Source: a virus. From it: a DNA stretch of 45,343 bases. Below the pieces are notes generated by a model that saw nothing but the letters and a program-made list of their open reading frames with translations, was not told the origin of the DNA and made no database searches. Location of the stretch: IMG/VR virus record IMGVR_UViG_3300045997_000193, positions 1-45,343 of that record; one strand, given 5' to 3'. How positions within the stretch are numbered: position 1 is the first letter of the stretch; each line of letters starts with the position of its first letter. A program made the position numbers and the translations under genes. Shown piece after piece: positions 23,782 to 44,330 of this stretch.

Positions 23782-24704
23782 CAGTAGATCGCGGCGTTGC
23801 AATGAAAGATCGACGACTGCGCATCCCACCAAAACGAGATGACGGCTTCCTTGCGCGCGCCGGCCGCAAGATCAGGTGCAACGCCAATCGCGTAGCCGGG
23901 GAATACCATGTTCGCGGACGCGGTGAACGCGCCCAAGTTCGTCCCGCGCACGCGCATGCGGTAGATCACATTCGGATTCGGCGTCGACGCGAACGTGACA
24001 CTCCACGGCCCGCTGACGTTGACCGCCCATTGTGCGCCGTTCTTCGGCTCGATGGTGACGACGCCGGTGCCGTTGAACACCTGCTCGGTCGTCTGGTAAG
24101 ACGCGGCGCGATGACTCGACCATTGCGGCCCGCCCCAAAAGATCGTCGTCCCGCCATCGGCCAGCCGCGCAATGACGCTCGACGTTGCGGTGACCCAAGC
24201 CATCTGTGCGTTCGCCGCCGGAGCGCTGCCCTGCGCGACGATCTGCGACGATGGTGCCGAAGCGTCGACCGCGGTCGCCGACGCGGCGAGCAACCCCGCC
24301 CCGAGAATCTGGATGCCGTTGCGCGACACCAGCACGCCGGTATTGCGCTTGAAAATAATCGCGTCGCCAATCAGCGCGCCGGCATCGTTGTAGCGGTAGA
24401 ACCGCAGATCGTTGCCGGCCTCGGAGCCGCCTTCGGGTTGCCCGTCCGTGGCGACCGCCCACCGAATCGCCGGCGTGCCACCCGCGCCGCCGGTCGGGTT
24501 GACCCAATAGGAACCGATGCCGCCCGCGCCAACCGCCGCCGGGAAATTGATGTTGCCCGACATCGTGCCGCCGGTGAGCGGCAGGTAGCCGCCGCCGCCG
24601 AGCGCAAGGAACCGCGCGTCGATGCCCTGAAAGTTCTCGCGGATTTGATCAATCGCCGCTTGCCGCGTCTGATCGATGGTCGGTTTGTTGTAGTCGACGG
24701 CCAT
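23781..24704 (-). CDS. tail fibre protein
   Basis: 307 residues from ATG 24704. The N-terminal helix (about 1-35, IDQTRQAAIDQIRENFQGID) would attach to the tail tip. YLPLTGGTMSGNINF at about 40-54 is the classic phage tail-fibre shaft repeat motif. The rest is strand-rich with an aromatic C terminus (ISFWWDAQSSIFHCNAAIY). It lies directly after the J-like gene, as fibre genes do in siphoviruses. Confidence 0.75.
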   Translation of the reverse strand: MAVDYNKPTIDQTRQAAIDQIRENFQGIDARFLALGGGGYLPLTGGTMSGNINFPAAVGAGGIGSYWVNPTGGAGGTPAIRWAVATDGQPEGGSEAGNDLRFYRYNDAGALIGDAIIFKRNTGVLVSRNGIQILGAGLLAASATAVDASAPSSQIVAQGSAPAANAQMAWVTATSSVIARLADGGTTIFWGGPQWSSHRAASYQTTEQVFNGTGVVTIEPKNGAQWAVNVSGPWSVTFASTPNPNVIYRMRVRGTNLGAFTASANMVFPGYAIGVAPDLAAGARKEAVISFWWDAQSSIFHCNAAIY

Positions 24705-24705
24705 G

Positions 24706-27411
24706 TTAGAGCCCCTTGAATTGCCACGAAGCGCGGCCGGAAGTCGGCTGCCCCGCCGAGTTGAACAGCTTGACCGTGATGGTATTCGGAACGCCGCCCC
24801 CGATCACGATATTGTCGACGCGCGAGTAAACCGCGGTCGACGCGCCGTCGCCGATGATCGACGCGAACGCCGACTCCCACGACGAGTAACGATTCACCAG
24901 CGGAACAATTGCCGCCCCGCCGGCCGGAACGTCGACGGTCCCGCTCTCGATGGTCGGCACCGTCGAGTAGAGCAGCTGCCACGTTTGCGTCGTGCGGACG
25001 ATGGTGCCGGCATCGACCTCGATGCGCAGCTTGGCCCACCGCCCGCTCCCGGTCAGCGACGGGACCTCGGTGAACGGCCCCGCCTGCGTATCGGCGAGCA
25101 GCAGCTTCAGCCGGTAGCCATTCGACGGCCCGCCGATGACCTCGATGTTCCCGAGCAGCTGCCAATCGCCAGCCATGATCTGCCCGACGTCAATCGGCCC
25201 CGATTCAATCCACGCCGGGACCGTCGACGGCAACGCGATGATCGTGTCCTTGAGCGAGTCGTCGAACCGCCCGACCGCGTTGTCGGGGTTGTCCGCGCCG
25301 TCGCCCCACAAGCCCGCGGGGTTCGTGTTGACCATGTAGACCACGCCGCCCGCGGTCCATTGATCGAAGTTCTGCGAAGTGTAGGGAGCGAACGGCCACG
25401 GCCCCCGGGTGATGATCTGCCCGCCGTCGTGCGCAACCGTCACCCGCTGCCGCGTATCGCGCGCCGACAACTGCCCCGCCGTGTCGCGCGCCCGGATGGA
25501 GTAATCCCAAACGCCCTCCGGCTGATTGAACGCCACGAAGGAATTCGCGTCGACGTCGGTGACCGGAACCATCTGCGCCCACGTCGCGCCGGGAACGCCG
25601 CGGCGAATCTCGAACCCCGCAAGGTCCGGATCGGTCGGCCGCGTCCAGTTCATGAACACATCGCCGCCGGCTTCGACCGCAAAGAACGCCGGGACATCCC
25701 CGGGCGGAACGTCCTTGCCGACGACGGTGAACGGCGTCGACGTGACCTCGTTGCTCACCGCGCCACTCGGCGAGATCGCGCGCACCGAGAGGTAGTAGGT
25801 CCCGCCGACCGCGAGCGGATAGCTTTGAAACGACGGGAGCGCCGTCGTGCGCGAATCGACGACGACCTGCGCCGCCGGGTTGGTGACGTTGTAGAGCGTC
25901 GTCTGGAACGCCGAGTGCGCCTGCGTCGGACGCGCCCAATCGAACGCCAGCTGCGACAGCCAAGTGCCGTCGCCCTGCAGCGTCGACACCTCGCGCACGT
26001 TGACCGGCGGCACCATCACCGGCGGATCGAGCGTCGGAATCATCCCGCCCGGATTCAGCGGCGGCGGATCGACAATGGCGACCCCGTCGTAGATCGAGTC
26101 GGCGTAGGATTCCGCCTCGATGGACCAGCGACCGAAGCCCTGATCGGCCACCCGCGTCAACCGGAACGGCGCGTTGATCCCGTAATCCGGCAGCTGCACC
26201 GTCACCACTTCGGCCTGCTGCAGTTCCATCCCGGGATCGAACGCCGCCCATGCAAGCTCGGTCGTCGCCACGGTGAATTGATTCTGCCGTTCGAGCGCAT
26301 CGCGCGCCGCCTGCTCCGGCCGCGTGATCCCCGGCATCGCAAGCACCGACTCACGCCGGCCCGCGCCGGTTGCGACGCGCGGAGCATACTGCCGCCGCGT
26401 CTGAAAATTCTCCGGCACCGAGACATCGGTGTAGGCAATGCCGACGTCGGTCGGAATGTCGCGCAACCGCGCCCGCGAAATCTTCAGCGACCCCTGCAGC
26501 ATGTCGCCGTAGCTCACCAGCCGCGACGGCGTCGACCGACGCAACGGCTTGAAGTAGTAGACCCCGCCCCGCTCCCACAAAGCGCAGCCGGTGTAAGCCT
26601 GCATGTGAGCGATGATGTCTTCTACCTTCTGCGACTCGACGAACGCAATCGCGATTTGCTTGCGCCGCTGGCCGTCGACATCCTCGTCGCAGAAGTTCGC
26701 CGCGTCGATCAGCGACGCTTGATCGACCAGCCGCCCCGCGCCGAACTTGTCGTTCGTGATGAAATCCGCAAGGCAGAGCGCCGGGTTTGCGCTAAACACG
26801 GTGGTGTTCGAGCGCGGGTCAAACACCTTCCGCCCCGCCACGGTGGCCGAGATATTCGGGAACGCGTTCAGCTTCAGCGTCGGCGGGAGCGACAACCGAA
26901 CGTAGGCGACGTCAGGCATCGCATCCGCGAACGTCACGCCGACGCTTGCATACGCCACGACCGACGACGGGTCGACCGTCTGCGTCGGCGTGCCGGTGTA
27001 GAACTGCGCGTTCAATTCGGCCGGCGCGTAGCCCTTGCCGTCCATCTCAAGCGTCGACAGCAACTCCAACTCGCCGTGACCGATGACGCCGAGGATGTTC
27101 AGGAACCCGGCCTGCACGATCAGCCCGACAATCGCCAGCCCCACGCGCACCGGCGTGCCGTAGACAATCGGGATGACGGCATTCGCGCCCGCGATGCTGC
27201 GCGCACTCCACTCCACCGGCCGCGCCGCCGCGTTGACGCGCCCCGCCGACGGCGAGTTGACGTCGACGATCTCCCACACTTGCCCGTTCGCGACATAGAC
27301 GTTCTTCGGAATCGTCGCCGAGTTCCAATAGCCGTGGTGCGCAAGCAACGCAAGCTCGGCGTCGGTGAAGCGGTTGCCGCCCCCCGATGGCCGGTTGGGG
27401 ATGATGCTCAT
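24706..27411 (-). CDS. lambda J-like tail tip / host-specificity protein
   Basis: 901 residues from ATG 27411. Forms the central tail tip that contacts the receptor. The order fits the family: an N-terminal basal region (about 1-200), a phage-tail tip attachment domain with CADEDVDG-type and YTGCALWERGGVYYFKP segments (about 270-310), two fibronectin-III-like modules (about 470-560 and 580-670, WTRPTDPDLAGFEIRRG) and a C-terminal strand domain. The start overlaps the upstream stop. One copy of the dispersed 14-bp motif is at 24901-24914. Good confidence in the role; module boundaries are by eye. Confidence 0.8.
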   Translation of the reverse strand: MSIIPNRPSGGGNRFTDAELALLAHHGYWNSATIPKNVYVANGQVWEIVDVNSPSAGRVNAAARPVEWSARSIAGANAVIPIVYGTPVRVGLAIVGLIVQAGFLNILGVIGHGELELLSTLEMDGKGYAPAELNAQFYTGTPTQTVDPSSVVAYASVGVTFADAMPDVAYVRLSLPPTLKLNAFPNISATVAGRKVFDPRSNTTVFSANPALCLADFITNDKFGAGRLVDQASLIDAANFCDEDVDGQRRKQIAIAFVESQKVEDIIAHMQAYTGCALWERGGVYYFKPLRRSTPSRLVSYGDMLQGSLKISRARLRDIPTDVGIAYTDVSVPENFQTRRQYAPRVATGAGRRESVLAMPGITRPEQAARDALERQNQFTVATTELAWAAFDPGMELQQAEVVTVQLPDYGINAPFRLTRVADQGFGRWSIEAESYADSIYDGVAIVDPPPLNPGGMIPTLDPPVMVPPVNVREVSTLQGDGTWLSQLAFDWARPTQAHSAFQTTLYNVTNPAAQVVVDSRTTALPSFQSYPLAVGGTYYLSVRAISPSGAVSNEVTSTPFTVVGKDVPPGDVPAFFAVEAGGDVFMNWTRPTDPDLAGFEIRRGVPGATWAQMVPVTDVDANSFVAFNQPEGVWDYSIRARDTAGQLSARDTRQRVTVAHDGGQIITRGPWPFAPYTSQNFDQWTAGGVVYMVNTNPAGLWGDGADNPDNAVGRFDDSLKDTIIALPSTVPAWIESGPIDVGQIMAGDWQLLGNIEVIGGPSNGYRLKLLLADTQAGPFTEVPSLTGSGRWAKLRIEVDAGTIVRTTQTWQLLYSTVPTIESGTVDVPAGGAAIVPLVNRYSSWESAFASIIGDGASTAVYSRVDNIVIGGGVPNTITVKLFNSAGQPTSGRASWQFKGL

Positions 27412-27743
27412 GGGAATTGCTCTAGACTCAATTCAGCCGAGTAGACATCCTTGCCGACCTGCCGGAACACCGGCGGCCGGGTGATGATGGCAGAGATCGC
27501 CGGCCCGGAGCCGTGCGGGTTGAACTCAATCGGCAGCCGCCGGTTCGCCTTGTAGAACGTCCACAATTCCGCGCGCTCGTGCGCGGTGAGGTAGGGATGC
27601 ACGATGCGCCACATTTGCTTCGGCTCGACGTAGAACGCGCGCGCGCGCCCCGTCCCGTCGATGGCGCGATCAATCGCGAGGTCGTCGGCGTAGTCGAGCG
27701 TCGACGCAAAGCCGACGCACTTGATCGGGTAGCGATTCGCCAT
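27408..27743 (-). CDS. minor tail protein, tip assembly
   Basis: 111 residues from ATG 27743, overlapping the upstream TAA (TAATG). A small strand-rich domain with FYVEPKQMWRIVHPYLTAHE and FYKANRRLPIEF resembles short phage minor tail proteins placed between the hub and the J-like tip. No exact family is claimed. Confidence 0.6.
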   Translation of the reverse strand: MANRYPIKCVGFASTLDYADDLAIDRAIDGTGRARAFYVEPKQMWRIVHPYLTAHERAELWTFYKANRRLPIEFNPHGSGPAISAIITRPPVFRQVGKDVYSAELSLEQFP

Positions 27744-34619: not shown

Positions 34620-34963
34620 GGCGTATTGTCGTTGTCGATGCGCTTCGCCAGCAACGTCAGCGTGCGCCGCGCCATATTCGGTTCAAGCACCGTCTGCAGA
34701 TCGTAACGCCCGCCCTGCGGCGAGAGCACCTGCGCCCAATCGTGCGCGTTCAACTGCTGGTGCGGCAGGTAACGGATGACGATCTTCGTGTCGACGCGGT
34801 CGATGTGGTGCTCGGCGCCGAACATTTCGCGACCGTTCACCGGACCGACGTCGGCCCAACATTCGAACAGCGGCATCAGCTGCACATGCTGTTGCCCGAG
34901 CGCGTCGAGCCCCGCCTTGCGGCGCATGAACTTGACACGATGACGAGCCGGCCCGGATTTCAT
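34616..34963 (-). CDS. head-tail adaptor / head closure protein
   Basis: 115 residues from ATG 34963, overlapping the upstream stop as ATGA. Matches the small beta-barrel head-tail adaptor (SPP1 gp16-like): VKFMRRKAGLDALGQQHVQL, FECWADVGPVNGREMFGAEH and VDTKIVIRYLPHQQL, DWAQVLSPQGGRYDLQ. Normal length. Confidence 0.85.
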   Translation of the reverse strand: MKSGPARHRVKFMRRKAGLDALGQQHVQLMPLFECWADVGPVNGREMFGAEHHIDRVDTKIVIRYLPHQQLNAHDWAQVLSPQGGRYDLQTVLEPNMARRTLTLLAKRIDNDNTP

Positions 34964-35529
34964 GCGTAGCTCAAGTTCGCCCACGACGCGAGCAGGTGCA
35001 ACGGCAGGAACGCGGCATCCTCCACCTTCGCGTAGTTCGCCAACTCGCGGACCTCATACATCGCCGCCGCCGCGACCAGCACGAACTGCCGCACGTCGGC
35101 CGGCGTCTCGGCCCACGTCTCGTAGCCGCCGCCGAGCAACAGCTTGTGCTCGCGCACCGCCCCGCCGTCCGCAACGCATTCGCACCGGCAGTAACGCTGC
35201 AGATCGACGAACAGCCCCGGAGTCCGCTCATGGTGGTTGTAGTCGAGCCGCCAATCCGACGCGAACGGAACGTCGGCGCCGACCAGATCGGTGACCTTGA
35301 GCTTCCGCACGAACCCGCGCTTATAGGCGAACCCCATCGTCATGCTGCCGACGTAGACCCGCTCCGACGCGACGACGTCCCGGTCGAGCGCGTGCTCGGC
35401 CGCGTCGAGCGCCGCCTCGAGATATTGCTTCAACAGCGGGTCCTCGATGGCGTGCTCGATGCGCGAGTGCGCCTTGAACACCGGCAACGCCGCGTCGACG
35501 AACGCCTGCACTTCGCGCGTGATCGACAT
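34960..35529 (-). CDS. gp6-like head-tail connector
   Basis: 189 residues from ATG 35529 (an ATG at 35568 overlapping the portal stop is an alternative). A helical connector with SRIEHAIEDPLLKQYLEAAL, a strand insertion, and a C-terminal helical pair (PADVRQFVLVAAAAMYEVRE). Binds below the portal to form the neck. Its length and position next to the adaptor fit HK97 gp6-type proteins. Confidence 0.8.
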   Translation of the reverse strand: MSITREVQAFVDAALPVFKAHSRIEHAIEDPLLKQYLEAALDAAEHALDRDVVASERVYVGSMTMGFAYKRGFVRKLKVTDLVGADVPFASDWRLDYNHHERTPGLFVDLQRYCRCECVADGGAVREHKLLLGGGYETWAETPADVRQFVLVAAAAMYEVRELANYAKVEDAAFLPLHLLASWANLSYA

Positions 35530-35557
35530 CAACCGCCAGCCGCCGTAAACGGGCAGG

Positions 35558-37729
35558 TTACGGTGCATCGCCGGCCTCCATGAACGTATCCCACGCGCCG
35601 TCGGCCGCCACCCGCGGCGCGTCCATCGTCTTCCGCTTGGCAATCCACACGCGACCGTCCTTGCGCACCAGATCGTTCAGGTGGTAGGTGCGGCCAGCGA
35701 CGAACACCCCGCGCCAGTTCAACCCGAGCGCGACGCGGCCGTCCTTGCCGTCGGCCCCCCGCTTCACGATCAGCCGCCACGAATCCACCGCCGCCGCCGT
35801 CCCCGGCTTGCCGGTCGGCTTGTCGCACTTCGCGACCCAAACCGAGCCGTCATGGGTGACCTGATCGCCCCGAGCGTAGTCGACCGCCGCCGTCCAGACC
35901 CCCCGGTGCTCGTTCTTCACGACCAACTCGCCGGTGCCATCCCGGCCATCGGCCCCGGGCGGCCCCGCCGCGCCGTCCGCACCCCGCTCGCCCGCCGGCC
36001 CCGCCGGTCCGGGCGCACCGGGCTCGCCCGCCGGCCCCTGCGGCCCCGTAGCGCCCGCAGGCCCCGCGGGACCTACCTGACCAGCCTGACCGTCCGCGCC
36101 GCGCTCTCCGGGCTCGCCTTGCGGCCCCTGCGGCCCCTGCGGCCCGGGATCGCCGCGCGGCCCCGGCAATCCATCCGCGCCCCGCTCGCCCTGTGGCCCC
36201 GGCAGCCCGTCGAGCCCGCGCTCGCCCTGCGGCCCCGCCGGCCCCGCCGGCCCCGCCGGCCCCGGAACCGGCGCCCGCGCCACGGCCTCCGCGATGACCT
36301 CACGCGCCGCACCGACCTCCTCGGCCAGCATCCGCACCGCCGCCGGGATGCCGCGCTTCCGCGCAACACCGGCAACGCGCGCCGACCACGAACGGCCCGC
36401 GTCGGCGTTGTCGTCGCCACCCGCATCGGGATCATCGTCGGGATCATCATCCGGCGGCACCGGAGCGGCCGGAACAACTGCCGGTGCCGGCCCCTTCGCC
36501 GCCATCGACAGCGGGACGTATTGCATCTGCACCAGCGGCTCGTCGCCGCCCTTCAGCTTCGCCTCGCCTTCCTTCGCCCGCACGTCGTTGATCGACAGCC
36601 AGCCCGACGAGAGCGCCGACTGATACGCGGTGAACCGAACGTCCATCTCGGTCCGCAACAGCGCATTCACGTCGAACTCGATGTAGACGTCCGCGGCCAG
36701 ATCGAACGCGCGCGCGAACCGCGCCTCCAACGCTTCGAGATGATAGGACAGGCACCCCGAGTAGTAGGTGCGCATCATCTGCTCGGAATTGCGGTAGCTC
36801 GCCTTCGTCAGATCACCGAGCAGGAACGTCGGCACCCGGAACACCCGCGCGACGTCCTCGATGGACCAGCGCAACTGCTCGATCAACTGCGCGTCGACCG
36901 CCGTCATCGTGAGCGGTTTCCATTCCAGCCCGGACCCGAGCACCGCCGTGCGCCCCTGCCCGCCCGCACCGTAGCTCCGCTCCCAATCCGTCTTCAGCCG
37001 CTCGGCGAGTTCCTTGTCGATCTTCCCCGGAGCCGTCAGCACGCCCGCCGGCCGCGCCGAGTTCTGGAAAAAGTTCTGCGACGCTGCGGTGATCCCCGCA
37101 CCGACCGCCGCCGACATCGCGGCCGCGAACATCGGCGACACGCCGACCAGCGGATGATCCACGGTCATGACGCGGTGATGCATGATGTCGCGCGCCGGCA
37201 GAATCCAACGGTCCTCGTTCCCAATCCCCGTCAACGGGTGCGACTGCGAACGATTCAACTGGTAGTAGACCGAGCCGTCCTCCGCGACCAGCGGCGTGAC
37301 GTAGCTCGGATTCAGCACATGCATCTCGGACACGACGCCACGGTCGTCCCGGATCAGGTAGACGTAGGCATTCCCCGCGAGCAGCACCGACACCTTCAGC
37401 TGCTGAATGAAATCGACCGTCGTCTGGTAGTGATTCGGGGAACGCAACAGCCGGTCAATCGGATGCCGCGGTTGCAACTCGCGCCCGCCATCCTCACGCG
37501 ACCGCCAAACCCGCACCGGCAACTTGCCGATGTCGGAACTGATCACGTTGATGCAGGCATAGACCGCAGAAAACGCCAACAGCGAAACCGGATTGGCGCA
37601 AGAGAGATTCCGCTGCCACGCACCGAGAAACGGCTCGTGAATCGACGGCAGCAATGGCGAACCCGGAACATTCGGCAACCGAGTGGTCACCGGGAACAGC
37701 GCAGCCTTCAGTTTAGCCCACGGTCCCAT
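35558..37729 (-). CDS. portal protein fused to collagen-like stalk and C-terminal modules
   Basis: 723 residues from ATG 37729 behind AGGGCAGAAG. Residues 1-412 are a full HK97-family portal ([57 protein letters not shown]). After an acidic linker (DDDPDDDPD) and a helical region (445-487) come 37 uninterrupted Gly-X-Y triplets (490-600), then two related modules at about 608-655 and 671-717 ([20 protein letters not shown] and [20 protein letters not shown]), like small chitin-binding-type/carbohydrate-binding repeats. The extension would extend from the dodecameric portal, perhaps outside the neck. The frame is open throughout, so it is a true fusion. Confidence 0.92.
35930..36262. repeat. 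collagen-coding repeat in the portal gene
   Basis: Plus-strand units of the type GGCCCCGCC / GGCCCCTGC code on the minus strand for 37 uninterrupted Gly-X-Y triplets rich in GPA, GPQ, GER and GAD. GC is even higher than in the neighbouring genes. Confidence 0.9.
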
Positions 37730-37916
37730 CTTCTGCCCTCATGTCACGCCGCCGGTAACGCCCGACGCGCGCCGGAACCAATTCAGCCAGCCCGCCGTTC
37801 ACCAACCTCATCCCCTGCGTATGCGGCATCGTGAACCGCGCCCCGGGAGAGATCAGGCGCCCGCCGAGCCGAAACTCGACGAGCGCCCGCAGAGCAAGGT
37901 GACCCTTGCCCGTCAT
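37713..37916 (-). CDS. small hypothetical protein between capsid and portal
   Basis: 67 residues from ATG 37916, six bases after the capsid gene; its end overlaps the portal start by 17 bases. A compact basic sequence with [20 protein letters not shown]. Phages often keep a small head protein here, but no family is recognised. No ribosome binding site is clear, so translation may be coupled to the capsid gene. Confidence 0.55.
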
Positions 37917-37922
37917 CGCCGG

Positions 37923-39275
37923 TTAGTAGGCGACGCCGCTGATCACCTGCACCGCCGGCAGCCGACGACGCTGCCACCAGATGTAGCGCTCGGCCTTGAG
38001 CGCCAGCAGGTTCTGCTGCCAGAGCGACACCAGCGGGGTCGGCGGCGTGGCCGGCGCCGTATCCAGCTGCAGCGCCGCTTCACGCGACGAGTCGAGCATG
38101 ATCTGCCCGTCGTCCGCGAGCAGGATTTCCGCCGCGTCCATGAGCACGATGCTCGTCTGCCCCGCCGTCGGGCCGGTGCCGACCGGCATCGCCGTCGACG
38201 TCACGACCGGGATGCCGAGCAGCCGGCTCTGCGCGAGTTCCGTGCCGAACACGAACGTGTCCATCGTGCCGCGCAGCAGCGACAGGTAGGTCTTCGTCCG
38301 CGGATGCATCACCCAGACCGGCGCGCGCATCGCGATGTTCGCAACCTGCATCGCACCGACCGCCGACGCGAGGTCCGCGGTGATCTCGGCAATGGTCGCG
38401 CCGGTCGACGCAATCGGCGTGACGCCGTTCGTGACCGCGCCCGGATGCACGCCAGCCGACACCGCAACCGCCGGGTCGATGAACTGCTGGTCCATGAATT
38501 CGGAAATCGCGTCGACGAGATCGTTGCGCACCAGCACTTCGGCCGACGGATCGCTGAACCGCGCGAGTTCCTCGGTGATGACGACGATGACCGCCATCTT
38601 CGCTTCCGGAATCGTGACCTGATCGAACGCCAGCTTGCTCACCGGCTTGCTCATGCCCTCGCCGACCCACGCGGCCGTGCTGCCCGCGGTCTGCAGCGCC
38701 ATGCGCACGTTGAACGGAACCTGCCGGAATCCGTTGATCTGTCCGACGATGGATGCCGGCCGCAGGAGATCGATGAACTCGTTCGCCATCGTGCGGTAGT
38801 CGACCAGCGGCTTCGCCCAGTTCGCGTCCGACGTGGTGCCAGCGGCGACCGCCGCCTTCAGCACGTTCTCGACGCCCGGGGTCGAATCCTTCCAGCGCTT
38901 CGCGATCTCGGCCGCCTGCATCAGGTTCCCGCGCGACGCGGCGAGCGCCATCGCGAACCGGGCAAACGCGATGCCCTTCTCGACCTTCGGGTCGCGCATC
39001 TGGATCACCGGCAACGGCCCGGAACCCGACGCCGGCACGATGACCGACTGCGCCGGTTGCGCCGCCTTCGCGAGCAGCCGCTCGGTGGTTTCGAGTTGGT
39101 CGACGTGCTGGTTCAGCGTCTCCGCTTCCTTCTCCAGCTTCGAGAACGTGGTCGTCTCGTCGTCCGAGAACGTCCGACCTTCGGCTTCGACCGTGTCGGT
39201 CAGCGCCTGCATCGACCGCAGGACTTCTTCGCGGCGGCCCTTCGCCGCGGCAATGCGCTCGGCAATCGTCTTCAT
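37923..39275 (-). CDS. HK97-fold major capsid protein
   Basis: 450 residues from ATG 39275 behind AGAAGGAATTCACTC. N-terminal 1-80 is a helical delta/scaffold domain (RREEVLRSMQALTDTVEAEG, FSKLEKEAETLNQHVDQLE) expected to be removed by the prohead protease. The capsid core follows, with PASIVGQINGFRQVPFNVRM, AAWVGEGMSKPVSKLAF, FMDQQFIDPA and WVMHPRTKTYLSLLRG. Normal length for the family with delta domain. Upstream is the protease gene. Confidence 0.93.
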   Translation of the reverse strand: MKTIAERIAAAKGRREEVLRSMQALTDTVEAEGRTFSDDETTTFSKLEKEAETLNQHVDQLETTERLLAKAAQPAQSVIVPASGSGPLPVIQMRDPKVEKGIAFARFAMALAASRGNLMQAAEIAKRWKDSTPGVENVLKAAVAAGTTSDANWAKPLVDYRTMANEFIDLLRPASIVGQINGFRQVPFNVRMALQTAGSTAAWVGEGMSKPVSKLAFDQVTIPEAKMAVIVVITEELARFSDPSAEVLVRNDLVDAISEFMDQQFIDPAVAVSAGVHPGAVTNGVTPIASTGATIAEITADLASAVGAMQVANIAMRAPVWVMHPRTKTYLSLLRGTMDTFVFGTELAQSRLLGIPVVTSTAMPVGTGPTAGQTSIVLMDAAEILLADDGQIMLDSSREAALQLDTAPATPPTPLVSLWQQNLLALKAERYIWWQRRRLPAVQVISGVAY

Positions 39276-39305: not shown

Positions 39306-39884
39306 TCAGCGACCGGCGACGCCCGACCGCAACGCCGCGATGCGCGCACGCCGCTGCGCCACGAACTCCGAAACCTTCTCCGGGTCGTGCGCGAGCACCA
39401 GCCGCTGCACCTCGACAGGAAACGCCTTTGCAACCGCGAGCGCGGCGGCATTGGCAGGAACTGAAACAAGAGAGAGTTCGAGCAGTTCCTGCCCGATGTA
39501 TTCGTAGCCGGTCACGCGATCATTGTGTTCGTCGCGAATGACATTCGGCTCCTTCGTCGGCCGGAACCCGACCGACGTCGCGCGCATGATCTTCTGCGCG
39601 ACCAGCGCGCGCACCATGTCCACAATCGGAGAGGTCCCGGGCGCCGCAAGCGTGATGTCGGACATCAACCGCTTGCCCTTGATCCGCATCTCGGCCGTGC
39701 CGACGATATGCCGCGAATCGTGCGCGAACAGCACGACGGGATTCGCCCGGAAATTGTCGAGTTCCCACCCGGATACCCGGATGATGTCGCCGTAACGGTC
39801 GACCGACTCGTCCGACGCGACAACGGAAACGGTATCGGCGTCCAGCGACGCCGCGCTCGGCGCCAGCCGATGAACGACCTGCAT
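39306..39884 (-). CDS. prohead protease (S78-like)
   Basis: 192 residues from ATG 39884. Cleaves the capsid delta domain during maturation. Catalytic-type residues are visible: His55 in VLFAHDSRH, Ser104 in ATSVGFRP, and Glu near 137 in ELLELSLVSVPANAAAL. A TTG 11 codons upstream is possible, but the ATG has a GGGA site in reach. It lies directly before the capsid gene, as usual. Confidence 0.9.
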   Translation of the reverse strand: MQVVHRLAPSAASLDADTVSVVASDESVDRYGDIIRVSGWELDNFRANPVVLFAHDSRHIVGTAEMRIKGKRLMSDITLAAPGTSPIVDMVRALVAQKIMRATSVGFRPTKEPNVIRDEHNDRVTGYEYIGQELLELSLVSVPANAAALAVAKAFPVEVQRLVLAHDPEKVSEFVAQRRARIAALRSGVAGR

Positions 39885-40056
39885 GCTTCGATTTCCCGAC
39901 ACGATGCACCCCCGCAATGGAAGTTCATCGCCCCGGTATCCGTCGCCTCGGAAGCCGTCGGGCGCCTATGTGCTGGCGATCAGCGACGCCGCGGCGGTGA
40001 CGCCGCCCGGTCCTCCGGCGGCGGTCGATTCCTGCAGCTATCGCTCATGGGCGCCG

Positions 40057-40085
40057 AAGATAACCGGAACAAAAGCCGCCGTCAA
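40057..40085 (-). promoter_or_regulatory. promoter for the head structural genes
   Basis: Minus strand: -35 TTGACG (40080-40085), 17-bp spacer, -10 TATCTT (40057-40062). The -35 overlaps the terminase stop. The spacer reads GGCTTTTGTTCCGG, an imperfect copy of the dispersed palindrome. No early-type TCGCA repeat or 12-mer box. A leader of about 165 bases (39885-40050) with a GC hairpin and a 22-codon open frame precedes the protease. Confidence 0.75.
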
Positions 40086-41920
40086 GTCAACAGGATTTCA
40101 GGGGTCGTGTCGGTCGCGTCCAGCGTCATCTGCCGCCCGAGCGCCATCAGCAACGCGATCACCCCGTCGATCTTCTGCCGCGGGTCCGACTTGTCCTTGC
40201 GCGGGAAAATGTTGCCCTTCTCGTCCTCCTTCACCTGCACGCAAGAGAGGCACCAAGCCAGCAACGGATTTCCGTCATGATGCAACCGCCGCTCCCGCAC
40301 CAGCGCATCCAACTCCTTCATCGGCGGCGAAAAGTTCGCCACGTTGGGACGATACTCGATCACCGACACGCCGGCGTCCTGCAGCGACGACGCCATCTGC
40401 AGCGACTGCCACGGATCGTAGGCGACATCCGTCACCGAGAACCGCTCGGCATCCGCGAGAATCGACTTCTCCACGAAATCGAACGCCAGCGTCTCGCCCG
40501 GAGTCGTCTGCAGCCAGCCATCGCCCTGCCACGTCGCGTAGGAATCGTTCCGCCCTTCGTCCACCGCTGCCTGCGGCAGGAACGCATCGCAGAAAACGTA
40601 GTAGTGCAGCACGCCCTCGATCTCGCGCCGGAACAGCAACACCTTCGCCGCGATGTCGATCTTCGCCGCGAGGTCGACCCCGAGCACGCACGCCTCGCCC
40701 TCGAACGCCGCCCGGTCAAGCGTCGGGTCCGCGCACGCCCGCCACGACTCCATGTTCATCCACGCAACCGCCGCCGTCGTCCACACGTTCAAGTGCTTCT
40801 GCTTGAACGCGTTCTGCTGCGACGCAACCGCCTGCGCCCGCTGACACAACCGCTCGATGACATCCGGCATCACCGACACCCCCCAATTCGGATTGGCCTT
40901 GCGCCACGCATCCGGCGACGTCCAATCGTCGTCCTTGTCGATGGTGTAGAGCACCGCAAAAAACTGATCGTCCTCCACCGCGCCCGACAGCACCTTCTGC
41001 GCGTAACCCCATTGCTCGAACCCGATGGATGACTGATTCGAGCCCGCCGTCGTGATCGCGAACACCATCGCTTGCGACCGCTTGCCGGTCGCCGTGAGCA
41101 AGACATCGTGAACCTCGCGCGACTTGTGCTGCGCGAGTTCGTCGAGAATCGCAAGGTGGACATTCAGCCCGTCCAGCGACGACGCATCGCGCGACAACGG
41201 CCGAAATACCGACACGGTCGACTGCTGCGAAATCGCATGCGTCGAAACCTCCACCCCATACTTGCCGCGGAACTGCGGCTCCTTGCGCGCCATGAACTGC
41301 GCCGTGTCGAACACCAGCCGCGCCTGCTGCCGCGTCACCGCCGCCGCATAGACCTCGGCCCCGCCCTCGTTGTCGAGCGCCAGCATGAACAGCCCGAGCG
41401 GCGCCGCCAGCGTCGTCTTGCCATTGCCCCGCGGAACGTAGCAGAGCACATAACGGAACCGCCGATTCCCCGCCTCGTCAACCCATCCGAACGCCGACGC
41501 GACGATGAACTTTTGCCACGCCCCGAGCTTCAGGTATTGCCCCGCGCGCGGCCCCTTGACCTCCCGAAACTTCTGCACCGCGACCAACGCCCGCTCGGCC
41601 GCCGCCGGATCGAAGCGGAACCGGAACCCCGCCGTCCCCATCCGCTTAAGATCGCGCTCGTGCCGCTTGCACGCCAGCTTGACCCACTTGCACGCCGGGA
41701 TCGCGCCCGACAGCACGTCGAGCGGATACTGCAGCGCATCCGCGACGTTGGGAAACCCCGCCTCGGCCACCTCCGCGAACTCGGACGCCGCACGCCGACG
41801 CACCTCATCCGCCTCGGCATCCAGCTTCGCCACCCGCACAGCCGGCGGCGGCAACGATGCCTTGCCGCCCGTCCGCACCCGCCGCGCACGCGCCCGCGGC
41901 ACCGCTACGTCATCACTCAA
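40082..41920 (-). CDS. terminase large subunit (TTG start)
   Basis: 612 residues. Packaging ATPase-nuclease. Walker A RGNGKT (about 164-169), Walker B VHLAILDE (about 253-260), motif III-type segment TATGKRSQAMVF, and the RNase-H-like nuclease with GVDLAAKIDIA, a mid acidic cluster, and KIDGVIALLMALGR at the C terminus. Start TTG 41920 is chosen because it follows GGGAGG by a good distance and overlaps the small-subunit stop. A GTG five codons earlier is possible. Confidence 0.93.
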   Translation of the reverse strand: MSDDVAVPRARARRVRTGGKASLPPPAVRVAKLDAEADEVRRRAASEFAEVAEAGFPNVADALQYPLDVLSGAIPACKWVKLACKRHERDLKRMGTAGFRFRFDPAAAERALVAVQKFREVKGPRAGQYLKLGAWQKFIVASAFGWVDEAGNRRFRYVLCYVPRGNGKTTLAAPLGLFMLALDNEGGAEVYAAAVTRQQARLVFDTAQFMARKEPQFRGKYGVEVSTHAISQQSTVSVFRPLSRDASSLDGLNVHLAILDELAQHKSREVHDVLLTATGKRSQAMVFAITTAGSNQSSIGFEQWGYAQKVLSGAVEDDQFFAVLYTIDKDDDWTSPDAWRKANPNWGVSVMPDVIERLCQRAQAVASQQNAFKQKHLNVWTTAAVAWMNMESWRACADPTLDRAAFEGEACVLGVDLAAKIDIAAKVLLFRREIEGVLHYYVFCDAFLPQAAVDEGRNDSYATWQGDGWLQTTPGETLAFDFVEKSILADAERFSVTDVAYDPWQSLQMASSLQDAGVSVIEYRPNVANFSPPMKELDALVRERRLHHDGNPLLAWCLSCVQVKEDEKGNIFPRKDKSDPRQKIDGVIALLMALGRQMTLDATDTTPEILLT

Positions 41921-42384
41921 TCGAACGCCTCCCACGAACCCTCGGTCGGCCGCGTCGACGATGGCGGCGCGAACTTCAACCGCCCCGACGGCGAGAAACC
42001 AAGTTCATTCATCAGCCGCCGCATCTCGTTCTCCTCGGCGACCAGCGCCGTGTAAAACGGCGACTGCATCGGCTTCCCCGACGTCGGATGCTTGAACACC
42101 ATCCCGAGCGTCGCGACCTTCGCCTCCAGCGACCGCACCCGAATCAGCATCCGCGTCAACCGGAGCATGAGCAATCCATCCGGCCGACCATGCACGCCCT
42201 TCACCAGCATCACTTCATGCAGCCACGCCAGAATCGCCTTCTCGTCGTCGGCCAGCGTTTCCCACGGTGGGACCTCCGGCAACGGATCGCGCGGCATCAC
42301 CGCAACCTCGTCGCGCATGCGGTCGCGTCGCGCCGACCCATGCAGGATTTTCACCACGTTGCTCGTTCGCGGTCTGCCCGCCAT
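41917..42384 (-). CDS. terminase small subunit, P27-like
   Basis: 155 residues from ATG 42384 behind GGGGTGGGGG. Starts MAGRPRTSNVVKILHGSARR, the AT-hook-like N terminus of the P27 family, then PLPEVPPWETLADDEKAILA, a helical middle (LMLRLTRMLIRVRSLEAKVA) and FYTALVAEENEMRRLMNEL. Recognises the packaging site. It is coupled to the large subunit. Confidence 0.85.
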   Translation of the reverse strand: MAGRPRTSNVVKILHGSARRDRMRDEVAVMPRDPLPEVPPWETLADDEKAILAWLHEVMLVKGVHGRPDGLLMLRLTRMLIRVRSLEAKVATLGMVFKHPTSGKPMQSPFYTALVAEENEMRRLMNELGFSPSGRLKFAPPSSTRPTEGSWEAFD

Positions 42385-42625: not shown

Positions 42626-42994
42626 TCACACGATGAACAGCCCGTCGTCGTCGTCGTCCGGAGCGGGCGCCGGCCGTGCGCGCCCGAACCCGCCGTCGTG
42701 CTTGGCCGTCTTCCGGTCGTGGCATGGCTTGCAGAGCGGCTGCAGGTTGGCGGCAGCAAAGAACTTCTCGGCCGCACCGTGGTGCGGCTCGATGTGGTCG
42801 ACGACGGTCGCACGCTTGCGGCACCCGGGGGTGCTGCACCCGGGATGCTCGAACAGGATGAGAGAGCGAAGCGTTGCCCATGCCTTCGTGTTGTAGAGCC
42901 GGCGGTTGGTCGTCGCATTGCGACGCCGCTCCGATTCTGCTACGGCGCGCGGTTGCCGGTCAAGAAACGGTGGACGGTTGAACCGATTCTGCAT
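42626..42994 (-). CDS. HNH endonuclease
   Basis: 122 residues from ATG 42994 behind GAGGCGCTCC, overlapping the methyltransferase end by 35 bases. The HNH core is complete: Cys53 and Cys58, DHIEPH (66-71), Asn83 and CKPCH (88-92), with the four Cys binding structural zinc. It lies one gene from the terminase genes; HNH proteins next to terminase assist in packaging-end cleavage in many HK97-like phages (established), so a packaging role is likely rather than homing. Confidence 0.88.
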   Translation of the reverse strand: MQNRFNRPPFLDRQPRAVAESERRRNATTNRRLYNTKAWATLRSLILFEHPGCSTPGCRKRATVVDHIEPHHGAAEKFFAAANLQPLCKPCHDRKTAKHDGGFGRARPAPAPDDDDDGLFIV

Positions 42995-44330
42995 GGAGCG
43001 CCTCTCGATTGGCGAACGTCTCGCCGGTGGTGGCGTGGACAGCTTCGCGCCCGGTGAAGTCTTGCCAGCGACGCACGATGACGTCGACGAACCGCGGCTC
43101 CAACTCGATCAACCGAGCCGAGCAGCCGAGCCTATCGGCCGCAATGAGTGTAGACCCTGATCCGCCGAACGGGTCGAGCACAAGGTCGCCAGCGCGCACG
43201 TTGTTCCCGAGCGTGCGCTCGATGAGCGCGACGGGCTTCATGGTGGGGTGGAGTCCTGACGCTGACGGGCGGTCGACGTGGAGCACCGAGGGGATGACCT
43301 CATCAAGCGTGGCGGCGCCGTTGACGTGGAGCACCCGGTCGCCGATGCGGATGGCGAATGAGCCGTCGGGTTGCTGCACGAACGGCGAGCCATCGCCGAG
43401 TTGCGCGATGGTGGTTTGCTTGCGGCCGCCGTGCCAGCGATGCGCGGCGCCCGGTCGCCAGCCGTACAGGATGGGCTCGTGCTGCGGTTGGTAGTCGGTG
43501 CGCGCCAGCACGAAGCGGTCCTTCACCCATTGCACGGTGATGTGCAGCTTGAAGCCGACGCCGGAGAACGCCTGCCTGAACGCGAGTCCCTGCGTGCCGT
43601 CGGCGTGCGCGACGTAGATGGCGGCACCGGGCTTCATCGATGCAAACGCCAGCGCAAACGCATCGCGCAGGAACAACGCGAAGTCAGCGTCGGACATCGA
43701 GTCGTTGGCGATCGTGCCAGCGGCGCCTTCGTAGGCGACGTTGTACGGCGGGTCGGTCCAGCATGCGTCGACCTTTTCGGCGCCGAGCAATGCGGCGTAG
43801 GTATCGGCCGAACGGCAATCGCCGCAGGCGACGCGATGCGGTCCGAGCGTCCACACGTCGCCGGGGCGCGAGAGTGCGACGGGTGGCGGTTCTGGCGCAG
43901 CGTCGGGGTCGTTCCCGGTCGCCGCGGGAGTGCCGAACAGGACGGCGAGTTCTTCCTCGCTGAAGCCGGTGAGGGATGCGTCGAAGCCGGCCGACTGCAG
44001 CGCTTCGAGTTCGACGCGGAGCAAGTCGGCATCCCAATCGCCGTCTTCGGCGATGCGGTTGTCGGCGAGCCGGTAGGCACGGACCTGATCGTCGGACCAG
44101 CCCTCGGCGACCATGACCGGAACAGTTGCCGCCCCGAGCAGCCGTGCGGCTTCAAGCCGGCCGTGGCCCGCGATGATGACGCCGGCCGAGTCGACGAGGA
44201 TGGGGTAGGTGAAGCCGAACTCGCGGATCGACGCGGCGATCTTGGCGATCTGCTCCGGGGGGTGCCGCTTGGCGTTTCCGGGGTAGGCGGCGAGCGCGTC
44301 GGGGGGGCGAAATTCAATTCGGTGGTCCAT
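42960..44330 (-). CDS. ParB-domain fused DNA methyltransferase (beta class)
   Basis: 456 residues from ATG 44330 behind CAGGAAAATAAATC. Residues 1-125 are a ParB/Srx-like domain (ILVDSAGVIIAGHGRLEAAR, RAYRLADNRIAEDGDWD). The catalytic N6-adenine/N4-cytosine methylase domain has DPPY at 193-196 before VLDPFGGSGSTL at about 384-395, the beta-class order. No restriction enzyme is near, so it probably modifies phage DNA against host restriction or marks the origin or packaging region. One copy of the dispersed motif (44117-44131) is inside. Confidence 0.9.
   Translation of the reverse strand: MDHRIEFRPPDALAAYPGNAKRHPPEQIAKIAASIREFGFTYPILVDSAGVIIAGHGRLEAARLLGAATVPVMVAEGWSDDQVRAYRLADNRIAEDGDWDADLLRVELEALQSAGFDASLTGFSEEELAVLFGTPAATGNDPDAAPEPPPVALSRPGDVWTLGPHRVACGDCRSADTYAALLGAEKVDACWTDPPYNVAYEGAAGTIANDSMSDADFALFLRDAFALAFASMKPGAAIYVAHADGTQGLAFRQAFSGVGFKLHITVQWVKDRFVLARTDYQPQHEPILYGWRPGAAHRWHGGRKQTTIAQLGDGSPFVQQPDGSFAIRIGDRVLHVNGAATLDEVIPSVLHVDRPSASGLHPTMKPVALIERTLGNNVRAGDLVLDPFGGSGSTLIAADRLGCSARLIELEPRFVDVIVRRWQDFTGREAVHATTGETFANREALHAESVQPSTVS

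Follow-up and report, generated by a model that had tools for sequence, protein, structure and literature searches.

Why should a phage portal protein continue, in a single reading frame, into a collagen-like stalk and two chitin-binding-type modules, and on which side of the capsid would such an extension lie? The question is raised by a 723-aa gene on the minus strand (35558..37729, with its stop codon at 35558–35560) of a 45,343-nucleotide viral record (IMG/VR IMGVR_UViG_3300045997_000193), the whole of which is referred to here as the window. The gene reads without stop or break, bearing out the in-frame succession of portal, collagen and carbohydrate-binding-module (CBM)-like domains given in a preliminary description made from the letters alone. 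Residues 1–408 (36506..37729, minus strand) form an HK97-type portal, and a domain search upheld the claim that it is complete, with both Pfam Phage_portal (PF04860; E 2.2e-94 over residues 54–388, 316.7 bits against a cut-off of 39.1) and NCBIfam portal_HK97 (TIGR01537; 239.7 bits against a curated cut-off of 112.05) above threshold. The portal model matched the in-situ HK97 portal (8cez) with Z 27.6 and an rmsd of 3.8 over 342 aligned residues. In this structure comparison, residues 33–395 aligned to residues 32–398 of the HK97 chain, and the last ordered HK97 residue, 398, corresponds to residue 395 of the window protein, just before the extension.

The extension begins with an acidic, fast-evolving linker (residues 409–489; 36263..36505, minus strand), recognized from dN/dS, modelled helices and comparison with the tails of unfused relatives. 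AlphaFold predicted helices at residues 444–458 and 462–485; its full-length model was confident for the portal, less so for these two helices, and did not resolve the collagen, as expected since a single chain was modelled. The stalk itself (residues 490–600; 35930..36262, minus strand) comprises exactly the 37 uninterrupted Gly-X-Y triplets first reported, matches the Pfam collagen repeat (PF01391) at 63.4 bits against a cut-off of 27.2 and recurs in relatives; it would be about 32 nm long if triple-helical. Chance or a GC artefact as its source was excluded by comparison with all six frames of the window, where the next longest Gly-X-Y run is 7 triplets, and with residue shuffles of the 723-aa protein, which never gave a run above 6. 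Two CBM5/12-like (chitin-binding-type) modules follow, module 1 at residues 601–663 (35741..35929) and module 2 at residues 664–723 (35561..35740), both on the minus strand. Module 1 has the motif W-x5-Y-x2-GD-x-V-x3-G-x2-W and matches the C-terminus of family phrog_1289 (profile positions 277–331) with E 7e-14; against CBM_5_12 (PF02839) it scores just under the Pfam cut-off (E 6e-5, 23.4 bits against 26.2). Module 2, identified by its fold and by alignment to module 1 and homologues, carries F for the first W and ND for GD, so that the twin motif originally proposed fits module 1 exactly and module 2 only as a variant. AlphaFold rendered this C-terminus as two small beta modules (mean pLDDT 84.5), for which Foldseek ranked phage tail fibres on top (9rkv, 8fqc) and, below them, chitin-related enzymes and chitinase chitin-binding domains, all at modest E-values; the ChiB and ChiC chitin-binding domains gave E 0.02–0.07 and a best target TM of 0.69 (2d49).

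That this portal–collagen–module fusion is real is virtually certain. Two separately assembled viral contigs, L002 and L003, diverged to pS 0.3–0.6, share the window's frame and layout, with 36 triplets in L002 and 35 in L003; no copy breaks the Gly-X-Y register, even though each relative differs from the window at about two fifths of its collagen residues. Because frame and layout are kept despite this divergence, these assembled contigs argue strongly against a local frameshift or a sequencing or assembly error. Pairwise dN/dS among the three fused copies was 0.10–0.12 for the portal and 0.08–0.14 for module 1, which is under purifying selection equal to that on the portal, compared with 0.22–0.57 for module 2, 0.23–0.37 for the collagen and 0.40–0.62 for the linker. 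Release of a free accessory protein by internal restart was also considered; it is made less likely, because the window protein's ATG codon at residue 468 has no counterpart ATG at the equivalent position in L003, and no clear Shine-Dalgarno sequence was seen.

Where the extension came from is indicated by more distant relatives, in which the portal is unfused and the gene after it carries a stalk and a window-type module. This arrangement was found in contig L004 and in five named phages, EBPR siphovirus 3 (gp5), Rhizobium phage RHph_X2_26, Pseudomonas phage PAJU2 (ORF007), Salmonella phage FSL SP-016 and Stenotrophomonas phage SOVA965, four of which match phrog_1289 with E 6e-28 to 3e-146 and the last, SOVA965, with 1e-12. 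The preliminary description thus had the domains of the extension right but missed its origin as the fused form of a separate gene usually found just downstream of the portal. We are highly confident that the partner of the portal in the fusion is this adjacent-gene family; judged from these comparisons, the extension is not a random addition, and the old junction between the two genes probably lies near residues 455–470. PHROGs names phrog_1289 'portal protein', yet the family is the portal's neighbour, and public annotation often calls the accessory protein a second 'portal protein'. A direct look for solved structures resembling the separate accessory protein gave nothing significant.

Scanning viral contigs by portal sequence alone yielded 79 new loci, 72 of them usable (a complete portal with enough sequence behind it). 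A stalk gene adjoins the portal downstream in 64 of these 72 and the module is present in 58, with no module-bearing ORF elsewhere in the usable loci. The accessory stalks vary, being absent, helical or collagen of 7–107 triplets; two separate accessory proteins (L261:6220-7521 and L278:5908-7470) have 107 and 92 uninterrupted Gly-X-Y triplets respectively, corresponding to 79–92 nm if straight. The accessory gene is missing from eight of the 72 loci, and six of the eight belong to one portal clade, in several loci of which the connector was read directly after the portal; the gene is therefore dispensable in that related clade. Tail length correlates with the accessory gene (Mann-Whitney p 1e-4), which is a lead only because the gene-lacking group is essentially one clade. 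A scan of genome contigs returned mostly unrelated collagen proteins, and weak matches to the window-type module were seen in the uncultured human-gut phages MT774376, MT774380 and MT774375 (98–100 kb).

At the portal/accessory junctions read, the two genes mostly overlap by a few bases (ATGA, for example), so that a small indel can fuse them. On the portal tree, fusion has occurred independently at least three times: in the window clade (support 100/100), whose sister is the unfused pair L237/L238; in Moraxella phage Mcat9, whose portal ends, after a short linker, in a window-type module but differs from the window protein in having no stalk and a single module; and in E. coli, where an additional G in AGGGGG makes the two genes one, encoding an 832–861-aa 'phage portal protein'. 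The profile of phrog_2271 itself covers both portal and accessory protein. We counted the exact fused E. coli junction in 742 records and the exact unfused one in 150, these figures referring to two sequence variants and not to all prophages. Two E. coli genomes that we inspected have the unfused form annotated as a frameshifted portal pseudogene. The E. coli junction is a G5/G6 run (L233:3120-3160, with L234, L316 and L319 near the same place), at which slippage could yield either the two separate products or the fused one. Since such joining has occurred independently at least three times, the overlooked accessory protein probably works attached to the portal, and the existence of fusions suggests a shared site of action for the two parts.

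Portal, collagen repeat and module are each of a known kind, and fused portals already stand unremarked in E. coli annotation. The phrog_1289 proteins (PAJU2 ORF007, FSL SP-016 SP016_00155, EBPR siphovirus 3 gp5) resemble the window protein in C-terminal module, post-portal place and head gene order, but are encoded by a separate gene, most with helical or other stalks and collagen in some only, such as that of Stenotrophomonas phage SOVA965. The E. coli prophage 'phage portal protein' (861 aa, WP_149508935.1) and those of phages vB_EcoS-783R2 and 705R7 (phrog_2271) have portal and accessory protein in one frame, as in the window, but without a Gly-X-Y stalk and with an origin, by the inserted G, independent of the window clade. 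SPP1 gp7, a portal-bound minor head protein (PMC5576092), and MuF proteins are encoded, like the accessory protein, directly after the portal, but we saw no domain relation to the window extension, MuF proteins can carry toxin domains, and Pfam scans of the fusion and of five separate relatives gave no match to the MuF domain (PF04233, PF06152). The head decoration protein SPP1 gp12, a type that binds the capsid exterior at hexamers, and EPcl of O157 prophages are phage-encoded collagen-like trimers, EPclA lying beside a trimeric coiled coil (PMC7602432, PMC3368898); these differ in being attached to the outer capsid surface or accompanied by tail-fibre domains and in not being joined to a portal. 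No fibritin (wac)-type match was listed in family profile scans of the fusion. Literature searches covering open-licence papers turned up no account of the accessory protein or of its fusion with a portal, and the publications on AH14a (a prophage) and on phages BiPBO1 and MD8 gave no virion data for it.

The gene is best read as two adjacent head genes that have fused naturally, one for an HK97-type portal and the other for an accessory protein encoded beside it, which has a helix at its N-terminus, a stalk that is collagen in this case, and chitin-binding-type modules at the tip. The accessory protein would act at or beside the portal's C-terminal crown, and a portal 12-mer would then bear as many as 12 extensions inside the head, on its inner face. 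Helix and collagen could zip into trimers, giving at most four rods, each about 32 nm long, with tip modules that may contact the capsid interior, scaffold or DNA. Such a portal-anchored minor head protein, in a place comparable to that of SPP1 gp7, might serve in assembly, packaging or genome release; trimerization, copy number, location and ligand are what we infer here. In solved HK97-type portals the C-termini lie inside the head, as they do in 80alpha (PMC10541612), and because of this, and because the last ordered HK97 residue precedes the extension, we prefer a lumenal, portal-anchored minor head protein to a neck whisker. Whisker and internal tether had stood on an equal footing in the preliminary description; the comparisons with relatives, together with where the portal C-terminus is known to lie, appear to tip that choice towards the inside. 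Even so, our preference for a lumenal site is slight, and we regard the reading as a whole, a fused portal–accessory protein that is a lumenal, portal-anchored minor head protein, as evenly poised. The fuller picture, in which the crown bears trimeric stalks with chitin-binding-type tips in the DNA space, as the tethered form of an undescribed and widespread partner that many phages encode separately, is put forward tentatively.

The best-surviving alternative, which we nonetheless think unlikely, is that of external neck or head fibres: an adhesin outside, near the portal vertex, would bind host-surface sugars, and in fused phages the linker would bring it outside or a separate copy would be made. 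A stalk with a CBM-type tip is the usual layout of a phage adhesin, the nearest solved folds are those of phage tail fibres and chitin-binding domains, and collagen and CBM5/12-type modules occur elsewhere in surface-exposed fibres (SPP1 gp12, the Stx phage tail fibre), with no case of lumenal collagen found in the literature searched. The adhesin-like modules and the very long stalks of some relatives, which reach 92 nm, speak for an outside position; separate stalks of 79–92 nm are longer than we would expect inside such a head. Against external fibres stand the lumenal C-terminus of solved HK97-type portals, the Mcat9 module, whose short linker to the portal would not easily let it reach the outside, and the window clade, in which no conserved internal start was found.

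Less probable still is that the extension acts only in assembly, or is cut by the prohead protease to leave a normal virion portal and a detached stalk that would stay inside, be ejected or disappear. The protease gene just upstream of the capsid gene and the long, acidic, fast-evolving linker would suit this, but we identified no cleavage site, and the tight conservation of module 1 argues for a function that persists, even if perhaps outside the mature virion stage. A neutral or decaying fusion, reading through into a dispensable neighbour and without function when fused, accords with the single-base difference in the E. coli G run and with the clade lacking the gene, but is very improbable given the purifying selection on module 1, the unbroken Gly-X-Y repeat in three diverged copies and the excess of fused over unfused exact junctions.

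On the reading of a portal-anchored minor head protein, the locus would expose an overlooked protein common in this HK97-type phage group, hidden by the name 'portal protein' and, through recurrent fusion of the genes, physically linked to the portal. The module resembles an adhesin, yet portal C-termini face the head interior, so the module's location would be informative either way, revealing a new internal head structure or a portal that presents fibres outside. The pseudogene label on the separate-gene form in the two E. coli genomes is an annotation problem that we flag here.

The fusion gene lies among head genes, all on the minus strand: the large terminase (40082..41935; PF20441, PF03354), the prohead protease (39306..39917; PF04586, 7e-5; phrog_80), the major capsid protein (37923..39275; PF05065, 1e-21; phrog_617) and a head–tail connector (34960..35643; PF05135; phrog_40, Ad1), which comes directly after the fusion gene with no accessory gene between them. 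Between the capsid and portal genes is a 67-aa ORF without a family match (37713-37916, minus strand). Small ORFs also occupy this slot in PAJU2 and the E. coli phages, an SGNH-hydrolase gene in Rhizobium phage RHph_X2_26 (L145:4699-5913, plus strand) and a hypothetical gene in SOVA965 (L148:3754-4830). Rfam and tRNA scans of the window gave no matches. Adjoining the terminase genes, a ParB-like nuclease domain is fused to a DNA methyltransferase (42960-44330, minus strand; phrog_498, 1.9e-152). Elsewhere in the window, two very long ORFs occupy one stretch on opposite strands (24703-27444, plus; 24706-27411, minus); since the minus-strand ORF encodes a central tail fibre J-like protein, its plus-strand partner is probably a high-GC artefact.
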